This document shows positions 4,037 through 41,335 of a stretch of DNA of 41,409 nucleotides, one piece after another; the stretch's first letter is position 1; each line of letters opens with the position of its first letter. The DNA lies in assembly GCA_903925005.1 (NCBI GenBank), contig CAIYDX010000247.1:1-41409 (forward strand). Reading direction: 5' to 3'. The DNA comes from an uncultured Geobacteraceae bacterium (GTDB lineage Bacteria > Desulfobacterota > Desulfuromonadia > Geobacterales > Pseudopelobacteraceae). The notes beneath the pieces were generated by a model, which was given only the letters and a program-made list of their open reading frames with translations, did not search any database and was not told the DNA's origin. A program made the translations under genes and the position numbers.

Positions 4037-4134
4037 AGGGGCAAGGGTCAAAACCAGGGTCAAGGGTCAAGGGTCAAGGGTCAAGAAAAAGCCTTTGAAT
4101 TACTTGGCCCTGGCCCCTGGCCCCTTGACCCTGA
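4037..4134. repeat. Heptamer inverted-repeat element overlapping the nrdR 3' end
   Basis: About 98 bases, among the longest of the series. Tandem GGGTCAA words occupy 4055-4084, a centre near GCCTTTGAATTAC follows, and then TTGGCCC/TGGCCCC/TTGACCC words run to 4134. It overlaps the last 18 or so codons of nrdR and provides its stop codon. On the other side it ends about 14 bases before the ribD start codon. Confidence 0.87.
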
Positions 4135-12558: not shown

Positions 12559-12645
12559 AGGGGCAAGGGGCAAGGGGCAAGTAAAGGCAGTATCATTGAC
12601 CCACGACCCATGACCCTTGACCCTTGACCCTTGACCCTTGACCCT
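12559..12645. repeat. Heptamer inverted-repeat element after the first receptor
   Basis: Three GGGGCAA words (12559-12580), a centre with GTAAAGGCAGTATCA, then a run of TTGACCC words, the last five perfect in tandem (12612-12645). It begins 8 bases after the receptor stop and ends 9 bases before the next ATG, leaving that gene without a recognisable ribosome-binding site. Confidence 0.87.
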
Positions 12646-17831: not shown

Positions 17832-18191
17832 ATGAGCGGGTTTAAAAAACTTGGTGTTTGGCAGAAAAGTTATGACCTGACTCTTGGTGTTTACCGGTTG
17901 ACCAACAAATTTCCACAAGATGAACGTTATGGCATTACGTCGCAGTTGCGACGGGCAGCGTCTTCAGTGCCGGCAAATATTTCAGAAGGCTATGAACGCA
18001 ACCATCGCAAGGAGTATCTGCAGTTTCTCTATATTGCAAAAGGTTCTTTAGGTGAGATAGAGACATTTCTAATGCTTAGTCGCGATTTGGGATACCTGTC
18101 AGTAGATGAATATTCAATACTGGAACTTGAACGGGCTGAAATCGGCAAAATGCTCATGGGATTAATTAGTTCGCTTTCCAAAAACCCTTGA
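17832..18191 (+). CDS. Four-helix-bundle protein (23S rRNA intervening-sequence family)
   Basis: A 119-residue protein of the small four-helix-bundle family first seen in 23S rRNA intervening sequences and related to Avd accessory proteins of diversity-generating retroelements. Family features: the opening LGVWQKSYDL, then FPQDERYGITSQLRRAASSVPANISEG and the late LGEIETFL...LGY segment. The biochemical role of stand-alone members is unknown; they are basic and may bind nucleic acid. The start ATG 17832 follows AAGAGG. The stop codon TGA (18189-18191) comes from the TTGACCC repeat downstream. It splits cheY from cheA and is bracketed by repeats on both sides, which suggests an inserted cassette. 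No retroelement or rRNA is nearby. Confidence 0.85.
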   Translation: MSGFKKLGVWQKSYDLTLGVYRLTNKFPQDERYGITSQLRRAASSVPANISEGYERNHRKEYLQFLYIAKGSLGEIETFLMLSRDLGYLSVDEYSILELERAEIGKMLMGLISSLSKNP

Positions 18192-18224
18192 CCCTTGACC
18201 CTTGACCCTGGCCCCTTGACCCTG
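18185..18224 (+). repeat. Half heptamer element between the four-helix-bundle gene and cheA
   Basis: Only the TTGACCC orientation is present (three perfect tandem words, then TGGCCCC TTGACCC). It supplies the upstream stop codon. The cheA ribosome-binding site GAGG (18224-18227) starts at its last base. There is no matching left arm next to it; the nearest GGGTCAA arm is at 17734, across the gene. Confidence 0.85.
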
Positions 18225-30000: not shown

Positions 30001-30410
30001 CAGAAGAACTCGAAAACGCCATAGTTCAGGGTGAACCGCCCGAAAAAATCAGGAGAACTCTCGATAATTTTGCTGCCGAGCTTGGCCGGTTGGTGGCGGA
30101 TCTGACGAACCGGCTTCCGGTTGATTCGGAGCCTGATGACGACACTTTGCCGGACACGTTTGACATTGAGGTTGTTACACCGATCCTGAACAGACTGCAT
30201 GAGTATATAAAAGGGAGAGACGGCAGGGCGGAACGGTATCTGGATGATTACCGGAGAGACCTGGCCGGTTTACCCCTCCACGACATCAGCCAGATAAAGA
30301 ACCATCTGAAAAATTTCGATTTTGCAGCGGCCCATGAGGTACTGCTGGCGCTTTCAGCCAGGAATGGTATTATGCTTGCGTCCGACGACACGGGGGATTA
30401 CCGACCATGA
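27078..30410 (+). pseudogene. Hybrid kinase (sensor-PAS-HK-REC-HPt) interrupted by an amber codon
   Basis: A BarA/ArcB-like gene of 1110 codons: TM1 about 16-34, periplasmic sensor, TM2 (VVLFGILLALAAGLGIY, near 315-335), coiled coil, PAS, HisKA with NMSHEIRTPLNAIIG (His 512), HATPase, receiver (VLMDIQMPVMDG) and a C-terminal HPt with RRAHTVKSIAGTMG. Codon 391 is TAG (28248-28250), in the PAS at WGRI-stop-YVNPKFTEITGY. The same frame continues intact before and after, and the usual residue there is Glu or Val, so GAG to TAG would explain it. The first ATG after the stop (28290) has no ribosome-binding site. As read, only the membrane sensor fragment is made. It may be a fresh null mutation, a sequencing error or a suppressed codon. 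Confidence 0.9.
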
Positions 30411-31459
30411 AAACGACATCTGCTCAGGCAAGTGTACTGATAGTTGACGATACTCCGCAGAATATCAGCCTGCTCAACGCCGCGCTGATGGACGAGTACA
30501 CCACCAAAATAGCAACCAGCGGCGCTCAGGCCATCGATATCTGCCTCTCCATGCCTATCGATATCATTCTTCTGGATGTAATGATGCCGGAAATGGACGG
30601 TTTTGAAACCTGCCGGCGACTCAAGGAAAATCCGATAACCCGCAATATCCCGGTTATCTTCGTAACGGCCAGGGGTGAGATTGACGACGAATCGATGGGG
30701 TTTACCTGCGGTGCGGTCGATTACATCACCAAGCCGATTCGGGCGTCGATCGTGCGGGCACGGGTCGGAACGCACCTTGCCCTGTACAACCAGAACCGCG
30801 CTCTGGATTGTCTGGTGCAGGAGCGCACCGCGGAACTGAACGAGACCCGTCTTGAAATCCTTCATCGGCTCGGCACAGCGGGGGAATTTCGGGATAACGA
30901 GACCGGTCTGCATGTAGCCAGGGTCTGCCACTATTGCCGCATAATTGCCTTGGCTTTGGGACTCCCGGAAAGCGAAGCGGAGCTCCTCTTTAATGCAGCG
31001 GCGCTGCATGACACCGGAAAGATCGGGATACCTGACAGCATTCTCTTCAAACCTGGCAAACTGGATGACGATGAGTGGAAGATCATGCGTACACATAGCG
31101 AGATAGGCTACAAGATAATCGGGCCAAGCCAGAATAATCTGCTGAAGGCAGCGGCAACGGTCGCGTTGTCGCACCATGAACGATGGGACGGTCACGGCTA
31201 TCCGCAGAGAATCCAAGGACAAGAGATCCCACTGTTTGGAAGAATTGTTGCTATCGCCGACGTGTTTGACGCATTGACCAGTGAGCGCCCCTACAAAAAA
31301 GCCTGGCCCGTATCTGAGGCGGTCGAGGAGATCGTGCGCTGTAGCGAGCAGCAATTCGATCCGCAGATAGTCGACGCTTTTATACAAAAAATAAATGAAA
31401 TTAATTTGGTGCGGCAACAATTCTGCGAAGCGGATAGCCGTGCATTAAGAGAAAATTAA
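30407..31459 (+). CDS. Response regulator with HD-GYP c-di-GMP phosphodiesterase
   Basis: RpfG-type regulator of 350 residues: receiver 9-125 (phospho-Asp 57, Lys 109), a coiled linker, then HD-GYP. Metal and catalytic residues are intact: HDTGKIG (His 201, Asp 202), THSEIGYKII, HHERWDGHGYP (GYP at 264-266) and IADVFDALTSERPYK. It should hydrolyse cyclic di-GMP when phosphorylated. The ATG overlaps the stop of the hybrid kinase (ATGA), so that kinase is the natural phosphodonor; with the amber codon there, this regulator may currently lack its input and also coupled translation. It is the only cyclic-di-GMP enzyme in the window; no GGDEF gene was seen. Confidence 0.95.
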   Translation: MKTTSAQASVLIVDDTPQNISLLNAALMDEYTTKIATSGAQAIDICLSMPIDIILLDVMMPEMDGFETCRRLKENPITRNIPVIFVTARGEIDDESMGFTCGAVDYITKPIRASIVRARVGTHLALYNQNRALDCLVQERTAELNETRLEILHRLGTAGEFRDNETGLHVARVCHYCRIIALALGLPESEAELLFNAAALHDTGKIGIPDSILFKPGKLDDDEWKIMRTHSEIGYKIIGPSQNNLLKAAATVALSHHERWDGHGYPQRIQGQEIPLFGRIVAIADVFDALTSERPYKKAWPVSEAVEEIVRCSEQQFDPQIVDAFIQKINEINLVRQQFCEADSRALREN

Positions 31460-31504: not shown

Positions 31505-33106
31505 ATGTTGACGGATAATCCGAGCGCTCCATTAATTCTGGTTGTTGAAGACGACGAAAGCCATGCCGAACTGATGAAACGGTCTCTTCAGGGTGCGGTG
31601 GAAGATTATCGTCTGGAAATGGTCGGTACCCTGTCTGATGCCCGGGCGGTAATTGAACGTAGCTCCCCTGACATCGTTCTAACCGATTTTCGTTTGCCGG
31701 ATGGCGAAGGGAGCGAACTGGTTGAAACCGTGAAGGAACTCTGTCCGGTGATTCTCTTGACGTCCCAGGGTAATGAACTGGTGGCCGTTGGCGCCATGAA
31801 GGCCGGAGTTCAGGATTACGTGATCAAATCATCGGCGGTATTTTCCGGTATATCGCGTATCGTTCAACGCGGTTTGCGCGAATGGGGACTTGTCCAGGAG
31901 CAAAAGAGGAGTGAAGAGGAACGCCTGAGAATGGAGCGTCACTTTCTGCATCTCCAGAAACTGGAAAGCCTGGGGACCATGTCCGGCGGCATTGCCCACG
32001 ACTTCAACAACCTACTGCAGGCGGTTCTAGGCAACCCCGAACTGAGCCTGATGAAGCTTCCCGAAGATGCGCCGGCGAGCCATTTTATCTGCAAGGCGGT
32101 CACCGCTGCTGAACAGGCCGCCAAGCTGAGCGGCATGATGCTGGCCTATTCCGGCAAGGGACTCTTTGTCATCAAGGAGATGAACCTGACCGAACTGGCG
32201 GAAAAAAGTGCCGACATGCTGACGGCGGCGATCTCGAAGAGCATAACGTTCGATCAAAAGCTCGACCACGCCCTTCCACCGATCATGGCCGACGAAGACC
32301 AGATTCAACAGGTGATCATGAACCTGATCATCAATGCCTCCGAGGCGATCGGCGTTGCCAACGGCTCCATCACCCTCTCGACAGGCGTGGATGATTTTGA
32401 TCAGATAACATTGAATTGCAGCCGCCTGGAGGAAAAACTGATGCCGGGCCGTTATGTCTGGATGGAGGTCAGCGACACCGGCTGCGGCATGGAATCCGGG
32501 ACGCTGGATAAACTGTTCGATCCGTTTTTTACCACCAAGTTCACCGGCCGTGGGCTCGGGATGTCGGCTGCCCAGGGGATAATCCACGCTCATAAGGGAG
32601 CTATTCTGGTGGATAGCAGGCCGGGTGTCGGGACAATCATCCGGGTACTGTTTCCGATAGCCGCTAACGCCGATAAAGAGCAGATAAACGGCGCAACCGC
32701 GGAAGATGGTGTTGCTTCCGCCGCTGTATCGAGTGCGGGGACGATTCTGGTCGTTGACGATGAAGAGATGATTCGGGGAGTTTGCCTCGAAATGGTCGCT
32801 GCACTCGGTTTTGAGACATTGAGTGCGGAGGGGGGAGAGGAAGCGCTCAGGATCTTCCGGGAACAGGGTGACCGTATCGATCTGGTGCTGCTTGATCACA
32901 GCATGCCGGGCATGGATGGCGTTGCCGTCTTCAGGGAGTTGAGAAAAATCAGACCGGATATTCTTGTGCTGCTTGCCAGTGGTTATAGTGAAGAGGAGCT
33001 TGCGGAAAGTTTTAAAGGGCTGGGGTTGAATGGCTTTATCCAGAAGCCGTTCCGGCTCGGTCATCTTGCCGATGAGGTGACGCGAGTACTGAAAAGGCAG
33101 GGATGA
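31505..33106 (+). CDS. REC-histidine kinase-REC hybrid
   Basis: A 533-residue soluble hybrid. The N-terminal receiver (10-128, phospho-Asp 61 in LTDFRLPDGEG) is nearly the same type as that of the REC-PAS protein at 40529. It is followed by a coiled coil, an NtrB-like HisKA with SGGIAHDFNNLL (His 165), HATPase (N box NLIINASEAI, G1 DTGCGME, G2 GRGLGMSAA) and a C-terminal receiver (about 412-530, Asp 464 in LLDHSMPGMDG). No sensor domain: input probably arrives by phosphotransfer to the first receiver. AAGGA precedes the ATG. The kinase gene that follows starts after a short heptamer repeat. Confidence 0.94.
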   Translation: MLTDNPSAPLILVVEDDESHAELMKRSLQGAVEDYRLEMVGTLSDARAVIERSSPDIVLTDFRLPDGEGSELVETVKELCPVILLTSQGNELVAVGAMKAGVQDYVIKSSAVFSGISRIVQRGLREWGLVQEQKRSEEERLRMERHFLHLQKLESLGTMSGGIAHDFNNLLQAVLGNPELSLMKLPEDAPASHFICKAVTAAEQAAKLSGMMLAYSGKGLFVIKEMNLTELAEKSADMLTAAISKSITFDQKLDHALPPIMADEDQIQQVIMNLIINASEAIGVANGSITLSTGVDDFDQITLNCSRLEEKLMPGRYVWMEVSDTGCGMESGTLDKLFDPFFTTKFTGRGLGMSAAQGIIHAHKGAILVDSRPGVGTIIRVLFPIAANADKEQINGATAEDGVASAAVSSAGTILVVDDEEMIRGVCLEMVAALGFETLSAEGGEEALRIFREQGDRIDLVLLDHSMPGMDGVAVFRELRKIRPDILVLLASGYSEEELAESFKGLGLNGFIQKPFRLGHLADEVTRVLKRQG

Positions 33107-33129: not shown

Positions 33130-34953
33130 ATGTTCCGGTTGCAGTCGCTTAAGACAAAAGTAACCATCTTCACCGTGGCCATTTTTCTGATCGGCATCTG
33201 GTCGTTGGCGTTCTACGCCACCCGGCTGCTGCGCGAGGATATGCAGCGCCTGTTTGGAGACCAGCAGTACTCGACGGTGTCGCTTGTGGCGGCGCAAGTT
33301 GATCAAGAGTTGGCCGACCGGTTGAAAGCGTTGGAAAAAGTTGCCGAAAGCGTCAGTCCGGCCATGATGGCCGATACGGCGACCGTGCAGGCGCTTCTGG
33401 AACAGCGCCCGTTATTTCAGAGTCTATTTAACGGCGGTACCTTCGTTACGCGGCTTGATGGCGTTGCCATCGCCTCCATCCCGCTCTTGGCAGGACGGTT
33501 CGGCGGCAACTACTTGGAGAGAGATTTCATGATCGCCGCGCTCAAAGAGGGGAAGACGTCGATCGGTAAACCGTTTATGGACGGGAAGTCTGCAGTTCCT
33601 ACTTTAGTCATGGCAGCGCCCATTCGCGATATTCAGGGTAGGGTGATCGGCGCCCTGGCAGGGGTAACCAACCTGGGAAACACCAGTTTTCTGGATAAAC
33701 TCACGGAACACAGCTTCGGCAAGAGCGGCGGTTATCTGCTGGCCGCGCCGCAGCACCAACTGTTTGTCACCGGCACGGATAAGAGCCGCATCCTGCAGCG
33801 GCTCCCCGCACCTGGAGTTAACTCGATGCATGATCGCTATATGAAAGGATTTGACGGTTTTGGGACTGCCGTGAATTCTCGTGGTATCGAAGAGCTGTCG
33901 GCGGCGAAGCGCGTTCCGGTTGCCGGTTGGTTTGTGATCGCCGTGCTTCCCACTGGAGAAGCTTTTGCCCCGATCGGCGCCATGCAGCGGCGTATGCTGA
34001 CCGCCACAATTCTACTGACACTTTTGGTGGGTGGCCTGACCTGGTGGTTATCCTACCGGATGTTAAATAAACAGCTTTCGCCGATACTTGCTGCCGCGAA
34101 AACGTTGGTGATTCAGTCCGATACCGACCAGATTCCGCAACCATTGCCGATAGCCAGGCAAGACGAAATAGGCGAGCTGATCGGTGCATTCAACACCCTG
34201 CTGGAAACATTGGGGGAGCGGGAAACCACGCTGCGCGCGAGCGAAAAAGCGCTGCAGGATAAAAATAGCGAGTTGGAGCGTTTTACCTACACCGTTTCGC
34301 ATGACCTGAAAAGCCCCCTTATCACGATACAGGCATTTGCCGGTATGATCTCGAAGGATCTGGAATCTGGAAAGTATGCTCGCGCTCAAGGAGATCTGAA
34401 GAGGATTGAAGATGCGGCGGTAAATATGACCCTTCTGCTGAACGACCTGCTGGAGTTATCCCGTGTCGGGAGGATCATGGACCTGCCGATAAAGATAGAT
34501 ATGAACATTCTGGTAAAGAATGTCCTTGCGCAGCTGACCGGTCCGATTGACAGCAGGCGGATTGAGGTGGTCGTCCAACCGGATCTTCCCTCCATTACAG
34601 GCGATATGCGGCGGTTGTCGGCAGTGCTGCAGAATCTGATCGAGAATGCCGTAAAGTATATGGGGGAGCAGGCCGCGCCACGCATAGAGATCGGCGCAAG
34701 ACTAGATGGGGAGGAGCTGCAGTATTTTGTCCGCGACAACGGCAAAGGTGTCGAACCGCGCTTTCAGGAAAATATCTTCGGTCTGTTCAATAAGCTGGAT
34801 CCGGAAAGTGAGGGTACCGGGATCGGCTTGTCGTTGGTTAGACGCATCATCGAAGTACATGGAGGCCGAGTTTGGGTTGAGTCGGATGGGGAAGGGCATG
34901 GGGCTTGTTTTTGTTTTACTGTGCCGGAAGAAAGGAATCCTGATGAAAACTGA
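33130..34953 (+). CDS. Membrane histidine kinase with Cache-type periplasmic sensor
   Basis: A 607-residue kinase. TM1 about 10-30; a periplasmic domain (31-288) with Cache-like segments (FVTRLDGVAIASIP, RDFMIAALKEGKTSIGKPF, APIRDIQGRVIGALAG and GYLLAAPQHQLFV); TM2 289-309; HAMP 310-365; coiled coil; HisKA with YTVSHDLKSPLITIQ (His 391) of the phytochrome-like class; HATPase with GTGIGLSLVRRIIEVHGG. The catalytic core is very similar to those at 37170 and 38743, whose sensors differ. Cache domains usually bind small metabolites such as carboxylates or amino acids. The ribosome-binding site comes from the heptamer array just upstream. The next gene starts 11 bases inside this gene's end. Confidence 0.94.
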   Translation: MFRLQSLKTKVTIFTVAIFLIGIWSLAFYATRLLREDMQRLFGDQQYSTVSLVAAQVDQELADRLKALEKVAESVSPAMMADTATVQALLEQRPLFQSLFNGGTFVTRLDGVAIASIPLLAGRFGGNYLERDFMIAALKEGKTSIGKPFMDGKSAVPTLVMAAPIRDIQGRVIGALAGVTNLGNTSFLDKLTEHSFGKSGGYLLAAPQHQLFVTGTDKSRILQRLPAPGVNSMHDRYMKGFDGFGTAVNSRGIEELSAAKRVPVAGWFVIAVLPTGEAFAPIGAMQRRMLTATILLTLLVGGLTWWLSYRMLNKQLSPILAAAKTLVIQSDTDQIPQPLPIARQDEIGELIGAFNTLLETLGERETTLRASEKALQDKNSELERFTYTVSHDLKSPLITIQAFAGMISKDLESGKYARAQGDLKRIEDAAVNMTLLLNDLLELSRVGRIMDLPIKIDMNILVKNVLAQLTGPIDSRRIEVVVQPDLPSITGDMRRLSAVLQNLIENAVKYMGEQAAPRIEIGARLDGEELQYFVRDNGKGVEPRFQENIFGLFNKLDPESEGTGIGLSLVRRIIEVHGGRVWVESDGEGHGACFCFTVPEERNPDEN

Positions 34954-36046
34954 AGCCGTCATTCTCGTCGTCGATGATAACTGGGACAATCTGCAGCTGC
35001 TCAAAGATATCCTTGAGATGGAAGGGTATGGAGTCCGTCTCGCTTCAAACGGTTGCCAGGCGTTGGAACTGGCGGTTAGCGAATCGCCGGCGCTGATTCT
35101 TCTGGATATCATGATGCCCGGCATGGATGGGGTGGAGGTCTGCCGGAATCTGAAAAAAGATCCCGCGCTAAGAAAGATTCCGGTGGTTTTTCTTAGTGCT
35201 CTTGATGCGGTCAGCCAAAAATTGCAGGCTTTCAGAGAAGGCGCGGTTGACTTTATTACCAAACCGTTTCAGCTTGATGAGGTTCTGGCACGGGTACATA
35301 TACATCTGCAGCTGTCCCACGTCGAGGAGCTGGAGAAAATGGTCGTGGAACGCACCGCCCGATTGACCGAGACTAATCATGTTCTTGAGGCGTTCAGCTC
35401 TTCTGTTGCCCACGATTTGAGAACTCCGACAAGTTGTGTCGCCACTCTGTGCGAACTTCTGATGGATAAATATTCCGACCGTCTTGGCGGTGATGGAATA
35501 GAACTGGTTGGTTTTATCCAGGATTCAGTTCAGGAACTTCAGGACCGCATTCAGGCGTTGCTGAAGTTTTCGCGTTCGACACGGGGAAAAATAGCCAGTG
35601 AACAGCTTGATCTTTCCGAGATGGCCCGCAAGATTGTTGCCGGCTTAGGGCAGACCTTCTCGGACAGATCGGTAGATATAAGTATTCAGGATGGTCTGCG
35701 TGCTGTCGCCGATAAAAATCTTATCAGTCAAGTCTTGGAAAACCTGCTGGGGAATGCCTGGAAATATACATGTAAAACCGGCGTGGCACGGATAGAATTC
35801 GGCCTGGAAGAGCATGAAAGGGAGCGCGCTTTTTTTGTGCGCGATAACGGCGTCGGTTTTAACATGAAAGAAGCCGGTAGCCTGTTCGGCATGTTTTGCC
35901 GGTTACAGAGCGCGTCCGATTTCCCGGGTGACGGGATCGGTCTGGCGACGGTTCAGCGGATTATTCTTCGCCATGGGGGATGGATCCGGGCGGAATCCGA
36001 AGGAGAAGGGTTAGGGGCATGTTTTTGGTTTACGTTGCCGGAATGA
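34943..36046 (+). CDS. Receiver-histidine kinase
   Basis: A 367-residue soluble REC-kinase: receiver (6-122, Asp 11/Asp 12, phospho-Asp 55 in LLDIMMPGMDG, Lys 108), coiled coil, HisKA with SSVAHDLRTP (His 158), and HATPase with N box NLLGNAWKYT, G1 RDNGVGF and G2 GDGIGLATV. ATG 34943 is chosen because AAAGGA lies upstream and the receiver begins right after it; the open frame extends further upstream only as an overlap with the previous kinase. The two genes overlap by 11 bases, so the Cache-sensor kinase at 33130 is the likely phosphodonor. A heptamer element follows the stop. Confidence 0.92.
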   Translation: MKTEAVILVVDDNWDNLQLLKDILEMEGYGVRLASNGCQALELAVSESPALILLDIMMPGMDGVEVCRNLKKDPALRKIPVVFLSALDAVSQKLQAFREGAVDFITKPFQLDEVLARVHIHLQLSHVEELEKMVVERTARLTETNHVLEAFSSSVAHDLRTPTSCVATLCELLMDKYSDRLGGDGIELVGFIQDSVQELQDRIQALLKFSRSTRGKIASEQLDLSEMARKIVAGLGQTFSDRSVDISIQDGLRAVADKNLISQVLENLLGNAWKYTCKTGVARIEFGLEEHERERAFFVRDNGVGFNMKEAGSLFGMFCRLQSASDFPGDGIGLATVQRIILRHGGWIRAESEGEGLGACFWFTLPE

Positions 36047-36051
36047 CAAGG

Positions 36052-36128
36052 CAGGGTCAAGGGTCAAGGGGTGGATTTTGAATCTACTTGACCCTGGCCC
36101 CTTGACCCTAAATAAGCCCCTTGACACT
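36052..36128. repeat. Heptamer inverted-repeat element before the lipoprotein gene
   Basis: GGGTCAAGGGTCAAGGG on the left, centre GGATTTTGAATCTAC, then TTGACCC/TGGCCCC/TTGACCC and a last CCCCTTGACAC copy. It starts 5 bases after the stop of the REC-kinase gene. Confidence 0.85.
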
Positions 36129-36145
36129 AAAAAGTGGAGAACAAC

Positions 36146-37159
36146 ATGAATAGCCATTCAGTTGTAAAATATTGCCTGGTGATAATCCTTGTCGTACTCG
36201 GGTTGACTCTTGTTTCGGCCTGCAATAAACAGGGACCGAAGCAGATCGGGCCAAAAGAGAGCGTCACTCTGGGGGTTTCTTCAATCGTCATGTCCACGCC
36301 GATATTCGTTGCCCAGGCAAAGGGGTATTTTGAGGAGGAGGGGGTGCAAGTGACCTTAAAGCCTTATCCGACCGGCAAAAAGGCTCTCGATGGTATGTTT
36401 GCCGGCGAGAACGATGTTGCCACCGCGGCTGAGACTCCAATCATGTTCCAGGGTTTTGCGCGCCATGATTTTTTTGTCTTTGCCACATTTTTTCAAAGCT
36501 ACAACGATGCCAAGATAATTGCCCGAAAAACCGCGGGGATACTTACGCCAGCCGATTTGAAAGGGAAGAGGATCGGTACCATTGAAAAGACGTCGGCCCA
36601 TTATTTTACCTGTATGTATTTAATGGAACACCGGATTGATCCGGCCACGGTAACAATTAGTTTTTACCCTGCGCCGGAACTTCCGGAAGCGTTCAAGAAC
36701 GGCAAGGTTGACGCGGTGGTCGCCTTTGAACCATATGTATATCAATCGAGATTGTCGCTTCCGGAACAGACGGTAACACTACCCAAAAGCGAGCTTTTCA
36801 GAGAAACGTTCAATCTGGTCGCAATGATGGCATGGACGGGGCAGCATCCAGAAGCAGTGAAAAAAATGCTGCGGGCAATAGATAAGGCAATAACTTTCGT
36901 ACAAAATAACAAGCAGGAGTCTATCGAGATCCTTGTTAAAAATGCGAAGTTCAACAGTGAGATGCTGGAGACGGTGTGGGACGACTATACTTATCAGCTC
37001 TCCCTCGATAATTCGATACTGACATCATTGGAAGATGAAGCACGCTGGGCGATACGTAACAAACTTGTCGATGCGCGAACAGTTCCCAATTATCTTGATT
37101 ACTTTTATCTTAATGCATTGAAAACAGTTAAGCCGGAATCGGTTTCCATCATTAAATGA
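36146..37159 (+). CDS. Orphan substrate-binding lipoprotein (NMT1/THI5-like)
   Basis: Periplasmic binding protein of about 337 residues with a lipoprotein signal: hydrophobic stretch VIILVVLGLTLVSA followed by the lipobox Cys (about residue 26). The mature domain fits the NMT1/SsuA class of ABC-transporter binding proteins: GVSSIVMSTPIFVAQAKGYFEEEGV, the loop with AAETPIMFQG, LKGKRIGTIEKTSAH and KVDAVVAFEPY. Family members bind thiamine precursors, nitrate, sulfonates and similar. No permease or ATPase gene is adjacent; instead a membrane kinase follows 10 bases later, so a ligand-presenting role for that sensor is likely (inference). ATG 36146 follows GGAG; an in-frame GTG at 36134 is less likely. 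The ligand cannot be predicted. Confidence 0.88.
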   Translation: MNSHSVVKYCLVIILVVLGLTLVSACNKQGPKQIGPKESVTLGVSSIVMSTPIFVAQAKGYFEEEGVQVTLKPYPTGKKALDGMFAGENDVATAAETPIMFQGFARHDFFVFATFFQSYNDAKIIARKTAGILTPADLKGKRIGTIEKTSAHYFTCMYLMEHRIDPATVTISFYPAPELPEAFKNGKVDAVVAFEPYVYQSRLSLPEQTVTLPKSELFRETFNLVAMMAWTGQHPEAVKKMLRAIDKAITFVQNNKQESIEILVKNAKFNSEMLETVWDDYTYQLSLDNSILTSLEDEARWAIRNKLVDARTVPNYLDYFYLNALKTVKPESVSIIK

Positions 37160-37169
37160 GGTCTGTGGT

Positions 37170-38639
37170 ATGAAGATAAAAACCAGGTTAAAACTGATTA
37201 TTATTGCCACTATTTCCATGCTTGTCTGGATCATATGCCTGCAATTGTGGGAAAATAAACAGACCGCGCATCTTAACAGGCAGGAAGATTCAATTCGAGA
37301 ACTCAGCTTTGACATTTTTCTGAGTAATCAGATACGTGAAGAGTATTTTATTTATAAAACCGAACGGGCAAAGCAGCAATGGTTTGCGCTTGACAAGCAG
37401 ATAACAGATAAATGCAACAAAGAAATGTTACCGCTGTTTACCGAAGCCTCCGAAAAAAATGAGCTGGAATTATTCATGCGCAGGCATAAAAATATTGCCG
37501 CTCTTTTTAAGCAATTGATTTTGTATGATCAGGCCGACACCCCTGGTGGTGCTACAGATGAAATTCGCAGCATTATCATAAACCAGATGACCGGGGAGTC
37601 CCATCTCCAGTATCAGCAATGCGTTTTGTTGTCCGGCGCCATAGACAAAATGGCGGAAAAGCAGATGGCCAGTTACAGTACATTCAACTTCATGTCGCTG
37701 GGGCTGTTTGGTCTGGTTATTATTATGTTTTCCAGAATGTTGCTTCGTCGCGTGTCTGATCCGTTGTTGCAACTGAAGGAGGGAACACGGATCATTTCGG
37801 AAGGAAATTTCGGTCACAGACTGAATGTTGCCTCTTCCGATGAAATCGGCGAATTGGCACGCGATTTCGACCTGATGACGGAGCAGCTTTCCGCTATTAC
37901 CGTTTCGCGTGACGAGATGAGTGAAGAGATTGAGAATCGTAAGAAGGCCGAGCAAAAGTTGCAGGACAAAAATATCGAAATGGAACGCTTCGCCTATACC
38001 GTTTCGCATGATCTTAAGAGTCCGTTGATCACGATACAGGCATATGCCGGCATGATAATGAATAATTTGGAAGCCGGCAAACATGATTGTATCCAGGATG
38101 ACATGAAGAGGATTGAGGGCGCTGCTGCGAAGATGACCAATCTGCTAAACGATCTTCTGGAACTATCCCGCGTCGGCGTGGTGATGAGCGAACCTGCTCA
38201 AATCGATATGAACCTGTTGGTAAAAGATTGCCTGGCTCTGTTGACCGGCCCGCTTAAGCAGAAGGGGGTTGAGGTTGTCGTACAGCCAGGTCTTCCCAAG
38301 ATTAACGGCGATCGACATCGTATCACCGAGGTGCTGCAGAATCTGGTGGAGAATGCCGTCAAATACATGGGGGAGCAGGCTGCGCCACGCATATTGATAG
38401 GTACAAGGGAAAACGGCCCGGAAACGATATTTTTTGTCGCCGATAACGGCTCCGGTATCGATCCGCAGCACCATGATAAAATATTCGGTTTGTTCAATAA
38501 ACTGGATGTTAAAAGCCAAGGGACCGGTGTCGGTCTGGCGCTGGTCAAACGGATCATCGAAGTGCATGGCGGGCGGGTCTGGGTCGAGTCGGAAGGGGCG
38601 GGTAAAGGGAGCACGTTCTGTTTTACGGTGCCGGGATGA
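37170..38639 (+). CDS. Membrane histidine kinase with helical periplasmic sensor
   Basis: A 489-residue kinase: TM1 8-27, a 145-residue mostly helical periplasmic domain (28-171), TM2 172-193, HAMP 194-245, coiled coil, HisKA with YTVSHDLKSPLITIQ (His 280) and HATPase with N box NLVENAVKYM, DNGSGID and GTGVGLALVKRIIEVHGG. It is a close paralogue of the kinases at 33130 and 38743 from the coiled coil onward. The gene begins 10 bases after the binding-protein gene, with GAGG before the ATG, so the periplasmic domain probably reads the loaded lipoprotein. The domain is the size of a four-helix-bundle sensor rather than a Cache domain. Confidence 0.93.
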   Translation: MKIKTRLKLIIIATISMLVWIICLQLWENKQTAHLNRQEDSIRELSFDIFLSNQIREEYFIYKTERAKQQWFALDKQITDKCNKEMLPLFTEASEKNELELFMRRHKNIAALFKQLILYDQADTPGGATDEIRSIIINQMTGESHLQYQQCVLLSGAIDKMAEKQMASYSTFNFMSLGLFGLVIIMFSRMLLRRVSDPLLQLKEGTRIISEGNFGHRLNVASSDEIGELARDFDLMTEQLSAITVSRDEMSEEIENRKKAEQKLQDKNIEMERFAYTVSHDLKSPLITIQAYAGMIMNNLEAGKHDCIQDDMKRIEGAAAKMTNLLNDLLELSRVGVVMSEPAQIDMNLLVKDCLALLTGPLKQKGVEVVVQPGLPKINGDRHRITEVLQNLVENAVKYMGEQAAPRILIGTRENGPETIFFVADNGSGIDPQHHDKIFGLFNKLDVKSQGTGVGLALVKRIIEVHGGRVWVESEGAGKGSTFCFTVPG

Positions 38640-38643
38640 AAAG

Positions 38644-38725
38644 GCAGGGTCAAGGGGCAAGGAGAAGCAAGAGGCAAGGGAAGATCAAAGACTTTGAATT
38701 CCTTGACCCTTGACCCTTGCCCCTG
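38644..38725. repeat. Heptamer inverted-repeat element before the ethylene-receptor-like kinase
   Basis: GGGTCAAGGGGCAAGG and a diverged GGCAAGGG on the left, centre TCAAAGACTTTGAATTCC, then TTGACCC TTGACCC TTGCCCC on the right. Starts 5 bases after the upstream stop and ends 6 bases before AAAGGAG. Confidence 0.85.
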
Positions 38726-38742: not shown

Positions 38743-39849
38743 ATGAACCACAATCACAGCATGATCAGCGACTACATGGCCCATGGTTTCTGCTTTTCGT
38801 GGGAGCCGGGTCTGGTATGGCTCCATGTGGTATCGGACATTTTTTCCGGAGTGGCATATTATGCCATTGCCATTGCCATGGCATATTTTGCTTTCAAGCG
38901 AAGAGATTTCCCGTTTATGGTGGTGTTTCTCTTGTTTGTGCTCTTTATCCTGGCATGCGGCACGACCCACTTTTTTGCCGCATACACGGTCTATGTGCCG
39001 GACTACTGGCCGGAGGGGTATGTTAAAGCCTTCACCATGGTGGTCTCGGTGATTGCCGCGATACTGTTCATTCCGAAGATACCGGCAGCGCTAGAAATGC
39101 CGAGCATTGCCAAGGCGCTGGCCGATCTGAGACTGGTTAGCGCGGAACAGAAACGTACCGAAGAAGAGCTGAATTTGAAAGTTGCCGAGCTGGAGCGTTT
39201 TACCTACACCGTCTCGCACGATCTGAAAAGCCCGATCATTACCATAAAGGGTTTTACCGGTTCTCTGGAAAAGGATCTTGCGAAGGGTAATTATGAACGG
39301 ATGGCGAGTGACCTGCAGCGCGTCAGCGATGCCGCCGACAAGATGAACGATCTGTTGACGGATCTGCTGGAACTTTCAACCATCGGCCGTATAATCAATA
39401 CGCCGGAACCGGTAGATATGAATCTGCTGGTAGATGATGTGCTGGCGCAACTGGACGGGCCTTTGAATAATAGTAATCTGAAAATCGAGGTGCAGCCCGG
39501 TCTGCCGATGCTGTTCTGCGACAGGCGGCGCATGGCCGAAGTGGTGCAAAATCTGGTAGAGAATGCCATCAATTACATGGGTGATCAGCCGAAGCCGCAA
39601 ATACTGCTTGGTAGTCGGGAAGAAAATGGTATAAACGTCTTCTATGTGCAGGATAACGGTATCGGTATTGATGAAAAATACCGCCAGGTTATCTTCGGCC
39701 TGTTCAACAAACTGGATGCGAAAAGCAACGGAACCGGTATCGGTCTGGCGCTCGTCAAGCGGATCATCGAAGTGCATGGCGGTCGGGTATGGTTGGAGTC
39801 GGAAGGGTTGGGGAAGGGGAGCAGGTTTTGTTTTACGGTGCCGGAGTAA
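38743..39849 (+). CDS. Ethylene-receptor-like (ETR1-type) membrane histidine kinase
   Basis: A 368-residue kinase with an N-terminal three-helix domain: TM1 about 25-51, TM2 57-80, TM3 94-112. It carries the plant ETR1 ethylene-site residues at a constant +7 offset: Asp 32 (D25), Tyr 39 (Y32), Ile 69 (I62), Cys 72 (C65) and His 76 (H69). The last two sit in ACGTTH, the copper-binding motif (CGATH in ETR1). The ETR1 proline P36 is Ala here and no N-terminal disulfide pair is obvious. A short coiled coil leads directly to HisKA (VSHDLKSP, His 159) and HATPase (GTGIGLALVKRIIEVHGG), with no GAF domain. AAAGGAG precedes ATG 38743. Followed by an Rcp1-like receiver. Ethylene or Cu(I) binding is inference from homology. 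Confidence 0.9.
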   Translation: MNHNHSMISDYMAHGFCFSWEPGLVWLHVVSDIFSGVAYYAIAIAMAYFAFKRRDFPFMVVFLLFVLFILACGTTHFFAAYTVYVPDYWPEGYVKAFTMVVSVIAAILFIPKIPAALEMPSIAKALADLRLVSAEQKRTEEELNLKVAELERFTYTVSHDLKSPIITIKGFTGSLEKDLAKGNYERMASDLQRVSDAADKMNDLLTDLLELSTIGRIINTPEPVDMNLLVDDVLAQLDGPLNNSNLKIEVQPGLPMLFCDRRRMAEVVQNLVENAINYMGDQPKPQILLGSREENGINVFYVQDNGIGIDEKYRQVIFGLFNKLDAKSNGTGIGLALVKRIIEVHGGRVWLESEGLGKGSRFCFTVPE

Positions 39850-39850
39850 A

Positions 39851-39938
39851 GGGCAGTGGCAAGGGTCCAGGGGCAAGGGTCAAGTAGATTCAAAATCTTT
39901 TGACTTTCCTGGACCCTTGACCCTGGCCCCTTGACCCA
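39851..39938. repeat. Heptamer inverted-repeat element before the Rcp1-like receiver
   Basis: Left words GGGTCCA, GGGGCAA, GGGTCAA; centre TAGATTCAAAATCTTTTGAC; right words TGGACCC, TTGACCC, TGGCCCC, TTGACCC. Starts 2 bases after the kinase stop and ends 7 bases before the AAGGAG of the receiver. Confidence 0.85.
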
Positions 39939-39956
39939 TAAAAAAGGAGAAAAACA

Positions 39957-40397
39957 ATGGACGGTGAACCGTTGACTATTTTACTGGTTGAGGACAACCT
40001 CGATCACGCCGAGTTGGTAATGCGCAACATGGAGGATTTTCAGGTGGCAAACACCATAGTCCATGTGGAGGATGGCGAAGCGGCGCTGGATTATCTACAT
40101 GGCCGGGGCAAGTATTCGGATCGGAAACTGTTTCCTATGCCGCATCTGATGCTGCTTGATCTGCGCCTCCCCAAGATAGACGGTCTGGAAGTTCTGAAAG
40201 AGGTTAAAAACGCTGAACAGTTGCGAGCCCTGCCGGTAGTGATTCTGACTACTTCCGATGCCGAACGGGATATGGCCATGGCCTATGAATATCACGCCAA
40301 CAGCTATGTGACCAAACCGGTAAATTTTGGCGAATTCAGCACGCTTCTGAAAGATCTGGGGTTTTACTGGCTGGCCTGGAATAAATGTCCGTGGTGA
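39957..40397 (+). CDS. Rcp1-type single-domain response regulator
   Basis: A 146-residue receiver of the Rcp1 family, the partners of phytochrome-like and other SHDLKSP-class kinases. Signature features: ILLVEDNLDHAELV, the extended loop ALDYLHGRGKYSDR between helix 2 and beta 3, phospho-Asp 68 in LLDLRLPKIDGLEVL, TTSD and YVTKPVNF. No output domain. AAGGAG lies 7 bases before the ATG. The gene order kinase-receiver and the class match make the ethylene-receptor-like kinase its first-choice donor, although the paralogous kinases at 33130 and 37170 have the same phosphodonor surface type and could also use it. Confidence 0.93.
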   Translation: MDGEPLTILLVEDNLDHAELVMRNMEDFQVANTIVHVEDGEAALDYLHGRGKYSDRKLFPMPHLMLLDLRLPKIDGLEVLKEVKNAEQLRALPVVILTTSDAERDMAMAYEYHANSYVTKPVNFGEFSTLLKDLGFYWLAWNKCPW

Positions 40398-40528: not shown

Positions 40529-41335
40529 ATGTTGACAGATAACTTTGCAGCGCCACTGATACTGGTTGTAGAAGACGACAAAAATCATGCCGAGCTGATT
40601 CAGCGCTCTTTTGAGGATGATCAGGGAGAATTTCGTCTTGAGATAGCCGGCACGATAAGCGCAGCGAATATGGCCATGGATCGGCACCCTCCAAACCTTG
40701 TTCTGACCGACTATCGACTCCCTGATGGAGAAGGGAGCGAATTGGTCGCCCTGGCTGCCGGATCGTGGCCGGTTATTATAATGACATCGCACGGCAGCGA
40801 GCAGGTTGCAGTTGAGGCGATGAAGATCGGTGCTCTGGATTATATCGTAAAGACGCCGGAGACTTTTGAAAATCTGCCCCGTAACGTCGCGTACGCATTG
40901 ATGTCCTGGGCATTGATAAGGTCGCGCCGACAGGCTGCCGATGCCGATCTGCGTGCTAAAAGAGATTGGGAGCGAACCTTCGATGCGGTTCCCGAACTGA
41001 TTTTCATCATTGACGTCCATCACACCATAACACGCGTCAACAAAGCGATGGCCGAGCGTTGCGGTCTGCCGGCGGAAGCGCTTGTCGGCCAGAAATGCTG
41101 TGATGCGGTGCATGGTCTGGAAGTCCAGCCGGAGGACTGTCCCGTTGCCGCGATGATGCAGGATGGCCTGGTGCATAACAAGGAAATTCATGAAAAAAAA
41201 TTGAACGGCATTTTTGATGTTACGGTATCACCACTTTTTGATGAAGAAGGGGTGATAACATCTTTTGTTCACCTGAATCGTTCTAAAAGAGCGCTAGTCG
41301 TAAAAACCATTCCGGACGGCATCCGGTATGCGTAG
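40529..41335 (+). CDS. REC-PAS protein
   Basis: A 268-residue protein with an N-terminal receiver (10-128, phospho-Asp 61 in LTDYRLPDGEG) and a C-terminal PAS domain (about 145-260) containing a cysteine-rich segment QKCCDAV and EDCPVA, as in PAS_4-type folds. It has no kinase or output domain. Its receiver is paralogous to the one starting the hybrid kinase at 31505: both open MLTDN-x2-APLILVVEDD. The next gene starts within its last codons, so it may be the sensory half of a split kinase whose catalytic part is encoded downstream. AAAGGA precedes the ATG. Confidence 0.88.
   Translation: MLTDNFAAPLILVVEDDKNHAELIQRSFEDDQGEFRLEIAGTISAANMAMDRHPPNLVLTDYRLPDGEGSELVALAAGSWPVIIMTSHGSEQVAVEAMKIGALDYIVKTPETFENLPRNVAYALMSWALIRSRRQAADADLRAKRDWERTFDAVPELIFIIDVHHTITRVNKAMAERCGLPAEALVGQKCCDAVHGLEVQPEDCPVAAMMQDGLVHNKEIHEKKLNGIFDVTVSPLFDEEGVITSFVHLNRSKRALVVKTIPDGIRYA

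Follow-up and report, generated by a model that had tools for sequence, protein, structure and literature searches.

The window, the whole 41,409-nucleotide stretch of DNA that we analyzed, comes from an uncultured member of the Geobacteraceae and carries an array of sensor-kinase genes. One of these encodes a histidine kinase with an N-terminal ethylene-binding-type domain (here the EBD kinase), and it is followed by a gene for a single-domain receiver (Table 1). The EBD kinase gene starts with the ATG at 38743, with a GGAG motif a few bases upstream, and its stop codon ends at 39849. A longer frame with a TTG start is possible from 38710; the first ATG falls at the position equivalent to 38743 in three orthologues (loci L062, L064 and L065) and 7 residues earlier in a fourth (L063). 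Just upstream of the array, positions 30407-31459 encode a receiver-HD domain protein (HD_5), a possible c-di-GMP phosphodiesterase. The gene for the SsuA/NMT1-like protein at 36134 is directly flanked by kinase genes and not by a transporter gene, and its product is perhaps the ligand-binding partner of the kinase encoded at 37170.

Three folded spacers of the array (from 36047, 38640 and 39850) are stable, with z values of -3.4 to -4.6. Heptad repeats (GGGTCAA, GGGGCAA and their complements) occur at 2225-2282, 4057-4131, 12614-12644, 18185-18222, 36054-36108, 38647-38716 and 39862-39937, and CCCTTGACCC is present in 24 copies in the window against 0.09 expected. A strict hairpin pattern was found at 17 distinct places in the genome, of which the window contains four (2225, 4057, 36054 and 38647), and at none when read backwards.

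Table 1. Features of the sensor-kinase array, residues of the EBD kinase and the second ETR1_N receptor of the same genome
Feature	Coordinates	Strand	Basis and remarks
HATPase_c protein with two receivers, array head	31505..33106	+	Pfam; HisKA only at E 0.13
Histidine kinase, Cache-like sensor	33130..34953	+	dCache_1 43.1 bits, just below cut-off of 45
Receiver and histidine kinase protein	34706..36046	+	Longest frame; overlaps preceding kinase
NMT1/SsuA-like solute-binding protein, probable lipoprotein	36134..37159	+	GTG start
HAMP histidine kinase	37170..38639	+	Core related to EBD kinase
EBD histidine kinase	38743..39849	+	368 aa; ETR1_N, HisKA and HATPase_c, without GAF
ETR1_N (ethylene-binding-type) domain	38812..39099	+	Residues 24-119; Pfam and AlphaFold2 model
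D32 codon (ETR1 D25)	38836..38838	+	Alignment
Y39 codon (ETR1 Y32)	38857..38859	+	Alignment
A43 codon at ETR1 P36 (Never-ripe) position	38869..38871	+	Alignment
C72-G-T-T-H76, predicted Cu(I) ligands (ETR1 C65, H69)	38956..38970	+	Alignment and PMC12744750
K95 codon (ETR1 K91, predicted D25 partner)	39025..39027	+	Alignment and PMC11819568
HisKA (DHp) domain	39190..39387	+	Residues 150-215; Pfam; acceptor H159 in SHDLKSP predicted by motif
HATPase_c catalytic domain	39520..39843	+	Residues 260-367; Pfam
Intergenic hairpin, CCCTTGACCC heptad-repeat type	39850..39956	+	Between kinase and receiver genes; -48.8 kcal/mol, z -4.6
Single-domain receiver	39957..40397	+	146 aa; phospho-acceptor D68 predicted by motif
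Receiver-PAS protein	40529..41335	+	3' of receiver gene, near contig end
C171 paralogue	L142:1491-4091		867 aa; ETR1_N-GAF-PAS-HisKA-HATPase-REC, in that order

The Pfam family ETR1_N (PF25487) matches residues 24-119 of the EBD kinase with an E-value of 2.1e-28 and 98.9 bits, against a curated cut-off of 27. When the N-terminus was searched in isolation, ETR1_N gave an E-value of 2e-29 and the second-best family only 0.065, so the match is not due to chance and assignment to an unrelated three-helix sensor family was rejected. An earlier note on this DNA had proposed an ethylene-receptor-like domain fused to a kinase lacking a GAF domain, with a profile search as the check; the search placed the domain as proposed, and the scan of the 368-residue protein returned ETR1_N, HisKA and HATPase_c and no GAF domain. 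An AlphaFold2 model built from a 37-row alignment (mean pLDDT 76.8, pTM 0.46, with block pLDDT of 78-90 within the ETR1_N domain) has helices at residues 22-52, 59-84 and 88-117 and then a long helix running into the kinase, and three transmembrane helices are predicted for the sensor. A Foldseek comparison of the model with the PDB was uninformative on the sensor domain, the best 50 of 625 matches looking kinase-type and giving no aligned range. Among 60 of 77 PDB chains matched by sequence, none spans the sensor domain, and two reach its end (a TatB homologue from residue 100 and LvrB from residue 116). A HisKA domain with a predicted acceptor histidine, a HATPase_c domain and an adjacent receiver together point to a two-component kinase. 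The EBD kinase is a genuine sensor kinase of the ETR1_N family, carried by a relative of Geobacter.

As equivalents of the Cu(I)-site residues D25, C65 and H69 of ETR1, the EBD kinase has D32, C72 and H76, and its D-to-C and D-to-H spacings (40 and 44) are the same as in ETR1 by its residue numbering. The five residues on which the earlier note had based the likeness to ETR1 (D32, Y39, I69, C72 and H76) were borne out together with their spacing and are invariant across 26 aligned domains; the pattern used to choose the rows of this alignment itself required D, Y, C and H, which leaves I69 and K95 as the only independent observations. The list of five omits P36, which is replaced by A43 here. 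Wang et al. in 2006 reportedly placed P36 among seven ETR1 residues required for binding, and we take the seven to be D25, Y32, I35, P36, I62, C65 and H69. Six of these seven are kept in the EBD kinase, P36 being the one replaced; beyond the five named earlier, I35 is kept as I42 and K91 as K95.

Alanine scanning found seven residues of ETR1 to be required for ethylene binding (PMC11819568). C65 and H69 are given as the copper ligands of the ETR1-type site (PMC12744750), a contact between D25 and K91 of ETR1 is predicted, and AzoEtr1 of Azospirillum brasilense has D35, C75 and H79 at the spacing seen in the EBD kinase (both PMC11819568). Two further papers report that the P36L substitution in tomato ETR3 is the ethylene-insensitive Never-ripe form (PMC6727826) and describe a P36L form of squash ETR1 (PMC8012379). 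Given this insensitivity and the alanine at the same position, ethylene binding by the EBD kinase cannot be assumed, and the description 'same residues as ETR1' should give way to one of a retained copper site with the Never-ripe proline replaced. At three other loci (L043, L045 and L158, from genomes G044, G186 and G569), N at the D25 position occurs together with D at the K91 position in every case, with C and H kept; two residues with a predicted contact in ETR1 are thereby seen to covary in nature.

Our survey of position 36 drew 118 domain frames from 141 loci. The pattern demanded D, an aromatic residue at Y32, C and H (K91 was not demanded) and dropped 2 frames with N at D25; the other 116 merged into 86 distinct rows. 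Proline occupies position 36 in 69 of these, alanine in 11, threonine in 3, glycine in 2 and serine in 1, a tally and not a census, as the genomes were scanned with a single peptide pattern and the best 80 of 108 relatives were used. The 17 rows without proline all carry small residues. Outside the tally, L156, L157 and L161 have proline, and L158 combines N at D25 with proline. All 86 distinct domains keep the equivalents of D25, Y32, C65, H69 and K91 (D, the aromatic residue, C and H being demanded by the pattern), 85 keep that of I35 and 82 that of I62.

In a tree of the 86 rows (105 columns, the position-36 column left out, many forks open), the window domain falls in a supported clade (98/94) of nine rows, all nine without P36. 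Mapping the presence or absence of proline on this tree takes six changes, at least three of them forced by supported branches. In the class of the window, 25 of 277 genomes have an ETR1_N match, its own genome included. The 27 above-cut-off matches comprise 11 with proline, 14 without it and 2 with N at D25 and proline at position 36, and the copy without proline is the sole above-cut-off ETR1_N copy in 13 of the 14 class genomes that have one, the exception being the window's own. Of 395 sampled genomes from the phylum, again including its own, 6 have an ETR1_N match, which is above the cut-off in 4.

The ETR1_N domain of the EBD kinase is under purifying selection. Between the window and four orthologues (L062-L065), the sensor domain has a dN/dS of 0.06-0.16 and the kinase one of 0.14-0.19, the sensor value being the lower every time; the ratios are rough and speak to constraint only, because dS (0.70-1.71) approaches saturation. 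When the five sequences are compared in all ten pairings, the sensor ratio lies below that of the kinase in eight and above it in two (L063-L064 and L064-L065). Decay of the domain is not supported by these ratios, rough as they are.

The same genome (G000; 94.88% complete, with a contamination estimate of 6.16%) holds a second ETR1_N receptor on contig C171, which keeps P36. The layout of the C171 paralogue is that of ETR1 with a PAS domain added, so that the plant-type arrangement with a GAF domain and a fused receiver, absent from the EBD kinase, is present in the same genome. Two LuxR-type response regulators are encoded near it. The window ETR1_N domain is 61% identical to that of C171, and the two kinase cores are only 25% identical. 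By ETR1_N score, AzoEtr1 (132 bits) ranks above C171 (109.8) and C171 above the window domain (98.9).

The receiver encoded at 39957, which we take to be Rcp1-like by its appearance, had been regarded as a dedicated partner of the EBD kinase. A single receiver does adjoin the kinase gene, but its dedication is weakened by paralogous receivers, 84% (contig C1) and 59% identical, beside other kinases with the same core type, and by the similarity of the kinase cores. The core of the EBD kinase is 58% identical to that of the kinase at 37170, 57% to that of the kinase at 33130 and 78% to that of a solute-binding-domain kinase in contig C1, where a parallel array (L144:8491-18800) contains a kinase with two receivers, a Cache kinase, two solute-binding-domain kinases and a lone receiver. 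From these identities, the sensor seems to have been attached to a kinase core found with several sensors. It is equally likely, judging by sequence, that the 39957 receiver is common to several kinases of the array.

A homologue of this receiver directly follows the EBD kinase at 6 of 13 loci examined (L054, L062, L065, L068, L070 and L076; L054 and L068 share one domain and were counted as one genome), lies further downstream at L066 and L069, and was not found at L063, L064, L073, L075 and L078. A looser, position-limited test over all loci placed a receiver frame just downstream also in L043, L060, L082 and L084. At L062, homologues of the proteins at 31505 (71% identical) and 33130 are also encoded upstream of the EBD kinase and receiver. 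Among the neighbor proteins scanned, we found no ethylene-related gene or clue to the ligand. The genome has a strong NifH-family match and two Cu+-ATPases above the family cut-off, which single out no ligand since both families match in 14 of 14 control genomes.

AzoEtr1, which binds 14C-ethylene and has a lone receiver gene adjoining (PMC11819568), is like the EBD kinase in its N-terminal ETR1_N domain (49% identical), its HisKA and HATPase_c domains, its adjacent lone receiver gene and its D/C/H/K residues. It differs in having a PAS domain and P36, neither of which is found in the EBD kinase, and its receiver is only 26% identical to the 39957 receiver over 96 residues. SynEtr1 (Slr1212) of Synechocystis is a bacterial ETR1-type receptor as well, and it signals by phosphorelay and contains a chromophore-binding GAF photosensor (PMC6508509, PMC7700396), whereas the EBD kinase has no GAF domain; its partner is the transcription-factor response regulator Slr1213 and not an Rcp1-type receiver (PMC6508509), whereas the EBD kinase adjoins a lone receiver. 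Plant ETR1 shares the three-helix domain and the equivalents of D25, Y32, I35, I62, C65, H69 and K91, but the EBD kinase lacks its GAF domain and fused receiver and has A43 for P36, and the C171 paralogue is closer to it in layout. The N-terminal CxC pair of ETR1 is absent from the EBD kinase. Cph1/Rcp1-type pairs are like the window in setting an SHDLKSP-type kinase core beside a lone receiver of ~146 residues, a likeness drawn by description; their sensor is a phytochrome, which the sensor of the EBD kinase is not.

The nearest named relatives, among the best 80 of 108, are Geobacteraceae and Desulfuromonadales MAGs, Oryzomonas japonica and Geomesophilobacter, and further ones include Nitrospirae MAGs, Azospirillum, Methylobacter, Methylobacterium and others. 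Judging from such relatives, the host would be an anaerobic metal reducer. The idea that this is a new setting for the domain is weakened. Our search of the open-license literature, judged mostly by title and the start of the abstract, found no ethylene-receptor paper on the Geobacter/deltaproteobacteria group, but bacterial ethylene receptors are already in print, AzoEtr1 with its lone receiver among them, and putative ones are recorded in proteobacteria and other bacterial phyla (PMC11819568). In the available part of a review of Geobacter signaling, ethylene is mentioned only for plant Etr1 (PMC8396549).

By analogy with characterized homologues, we lean, with modest confidence, towards the EBD kinase being a Cu(I)-site receptor for ethylene or a close ligand that signals to the 39957 receiver. 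Its three transmembrane helices would bind Cu(I) via C72 and H76, positioned by D32 in contact with K95. Most likely it is ethylene, among small pi-acceptor gases, that would bind the copper and shift the helices, and the shift would alter autophosphorylation of H159, with the sensor coupled directly to the HisKA helix and no GAF domain between them. The phosphate would then pass from H159 to D68 of the receiver, which may act by protein contact since it has no output domain. Because related cores with different sensors (Cache-like, HAMP and ETR1_N) lie in one array, several inputs may converge on this receiver.

This receptor reading is favored by the ETR1_N assignment without a rival family, the conservation of the copper site, the low sensor dN/dS, ethylene binding by AzoEtr1 with its adjacent receiver, receiver adjacency at 6 of 13 loci and the parallel array in C1, as well as by the two Cu+-ATPases, ordinary as these are. 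It is weakened by A43 at P36, by an ETR1_N score below those of AzoEtr1 and C171, by the five loci without a receiver homologue, by the low identity to the AzoEtr1 receiver, by the strong hairpin between the kinase and receiver genes and by the lack of an ethylene-related gene among the neighbors.

A credible but less probable alternative is that the copper site has been kept while ethylene binding has been lost or weakened, the pocket of the P36-less clade being re-tuned to acetylene, CO or copper itself. The uniform loss of P36 in a supported clade of nine rows, with at least three forced changes on the tree and D, Y, C, H and K kept, would fit such re-tuning, as would the P36-less copy being the only one above the cut-off in 13 of the 14 class genomes that have such a copy and a separate P36-keeping receptor of ETR1-like layout in the window's own. 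The P36L form of tomato is insensitive (PMC6727826), but leucine differs from alanine, and this backbone may accommodate a small residue there; the tree also has few columns. With A, T, G or S at the position, helix 1 is left without its proline, and the restriction to such small residues fits tolerance and a re-tuned pocket alike.

It is improbable that the ETR1_N domain now serves merely as a membrane anchor and dimerization module without metal or ligand. One canonical residue has changed and similar kinase cores carry different sensors, as that reading would allow, but all copper-site residues are kept, and in 8 of 10 pairs the sensor is under stronger purifying selection than the kinase. 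Chance resemblance of an unrelated three-helix sensor to ETR1 is a negligible prospect, for which we found no support and against which stand the E-values of 2e-29 and 0.065 and the identities of 49% to AzoEtr1 and 61% to the C171 domain.

Returning to the copper-site receptor, a broader proposal, speculative and in our estimate rather unlikely as a whole, is that in Geobacterales and their neighbors P36-less ETR1-family copper sensors arose more than once and report acetylene, CO or Cu(I) and not ethylene, feeding a multi-sensor array with a shared receiver and accompanied, in at least one genome, by an ETR1-shaped receptor that retains P36. The window domain presents a natural substitution at a well-known ethylene-insensitivity site and belongs to a conserved clade with the copper site retained. 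Comparison of the window and C171 domains would tell whether P36 is needed for ethylene binding generally or only in the plant backbone, and the window domain bears on whether copper ligands besides ethylene can be sensed by domains of the ETR1 type. If ethylene sensing is real here, it would be extended to the relatives of Geobacter.
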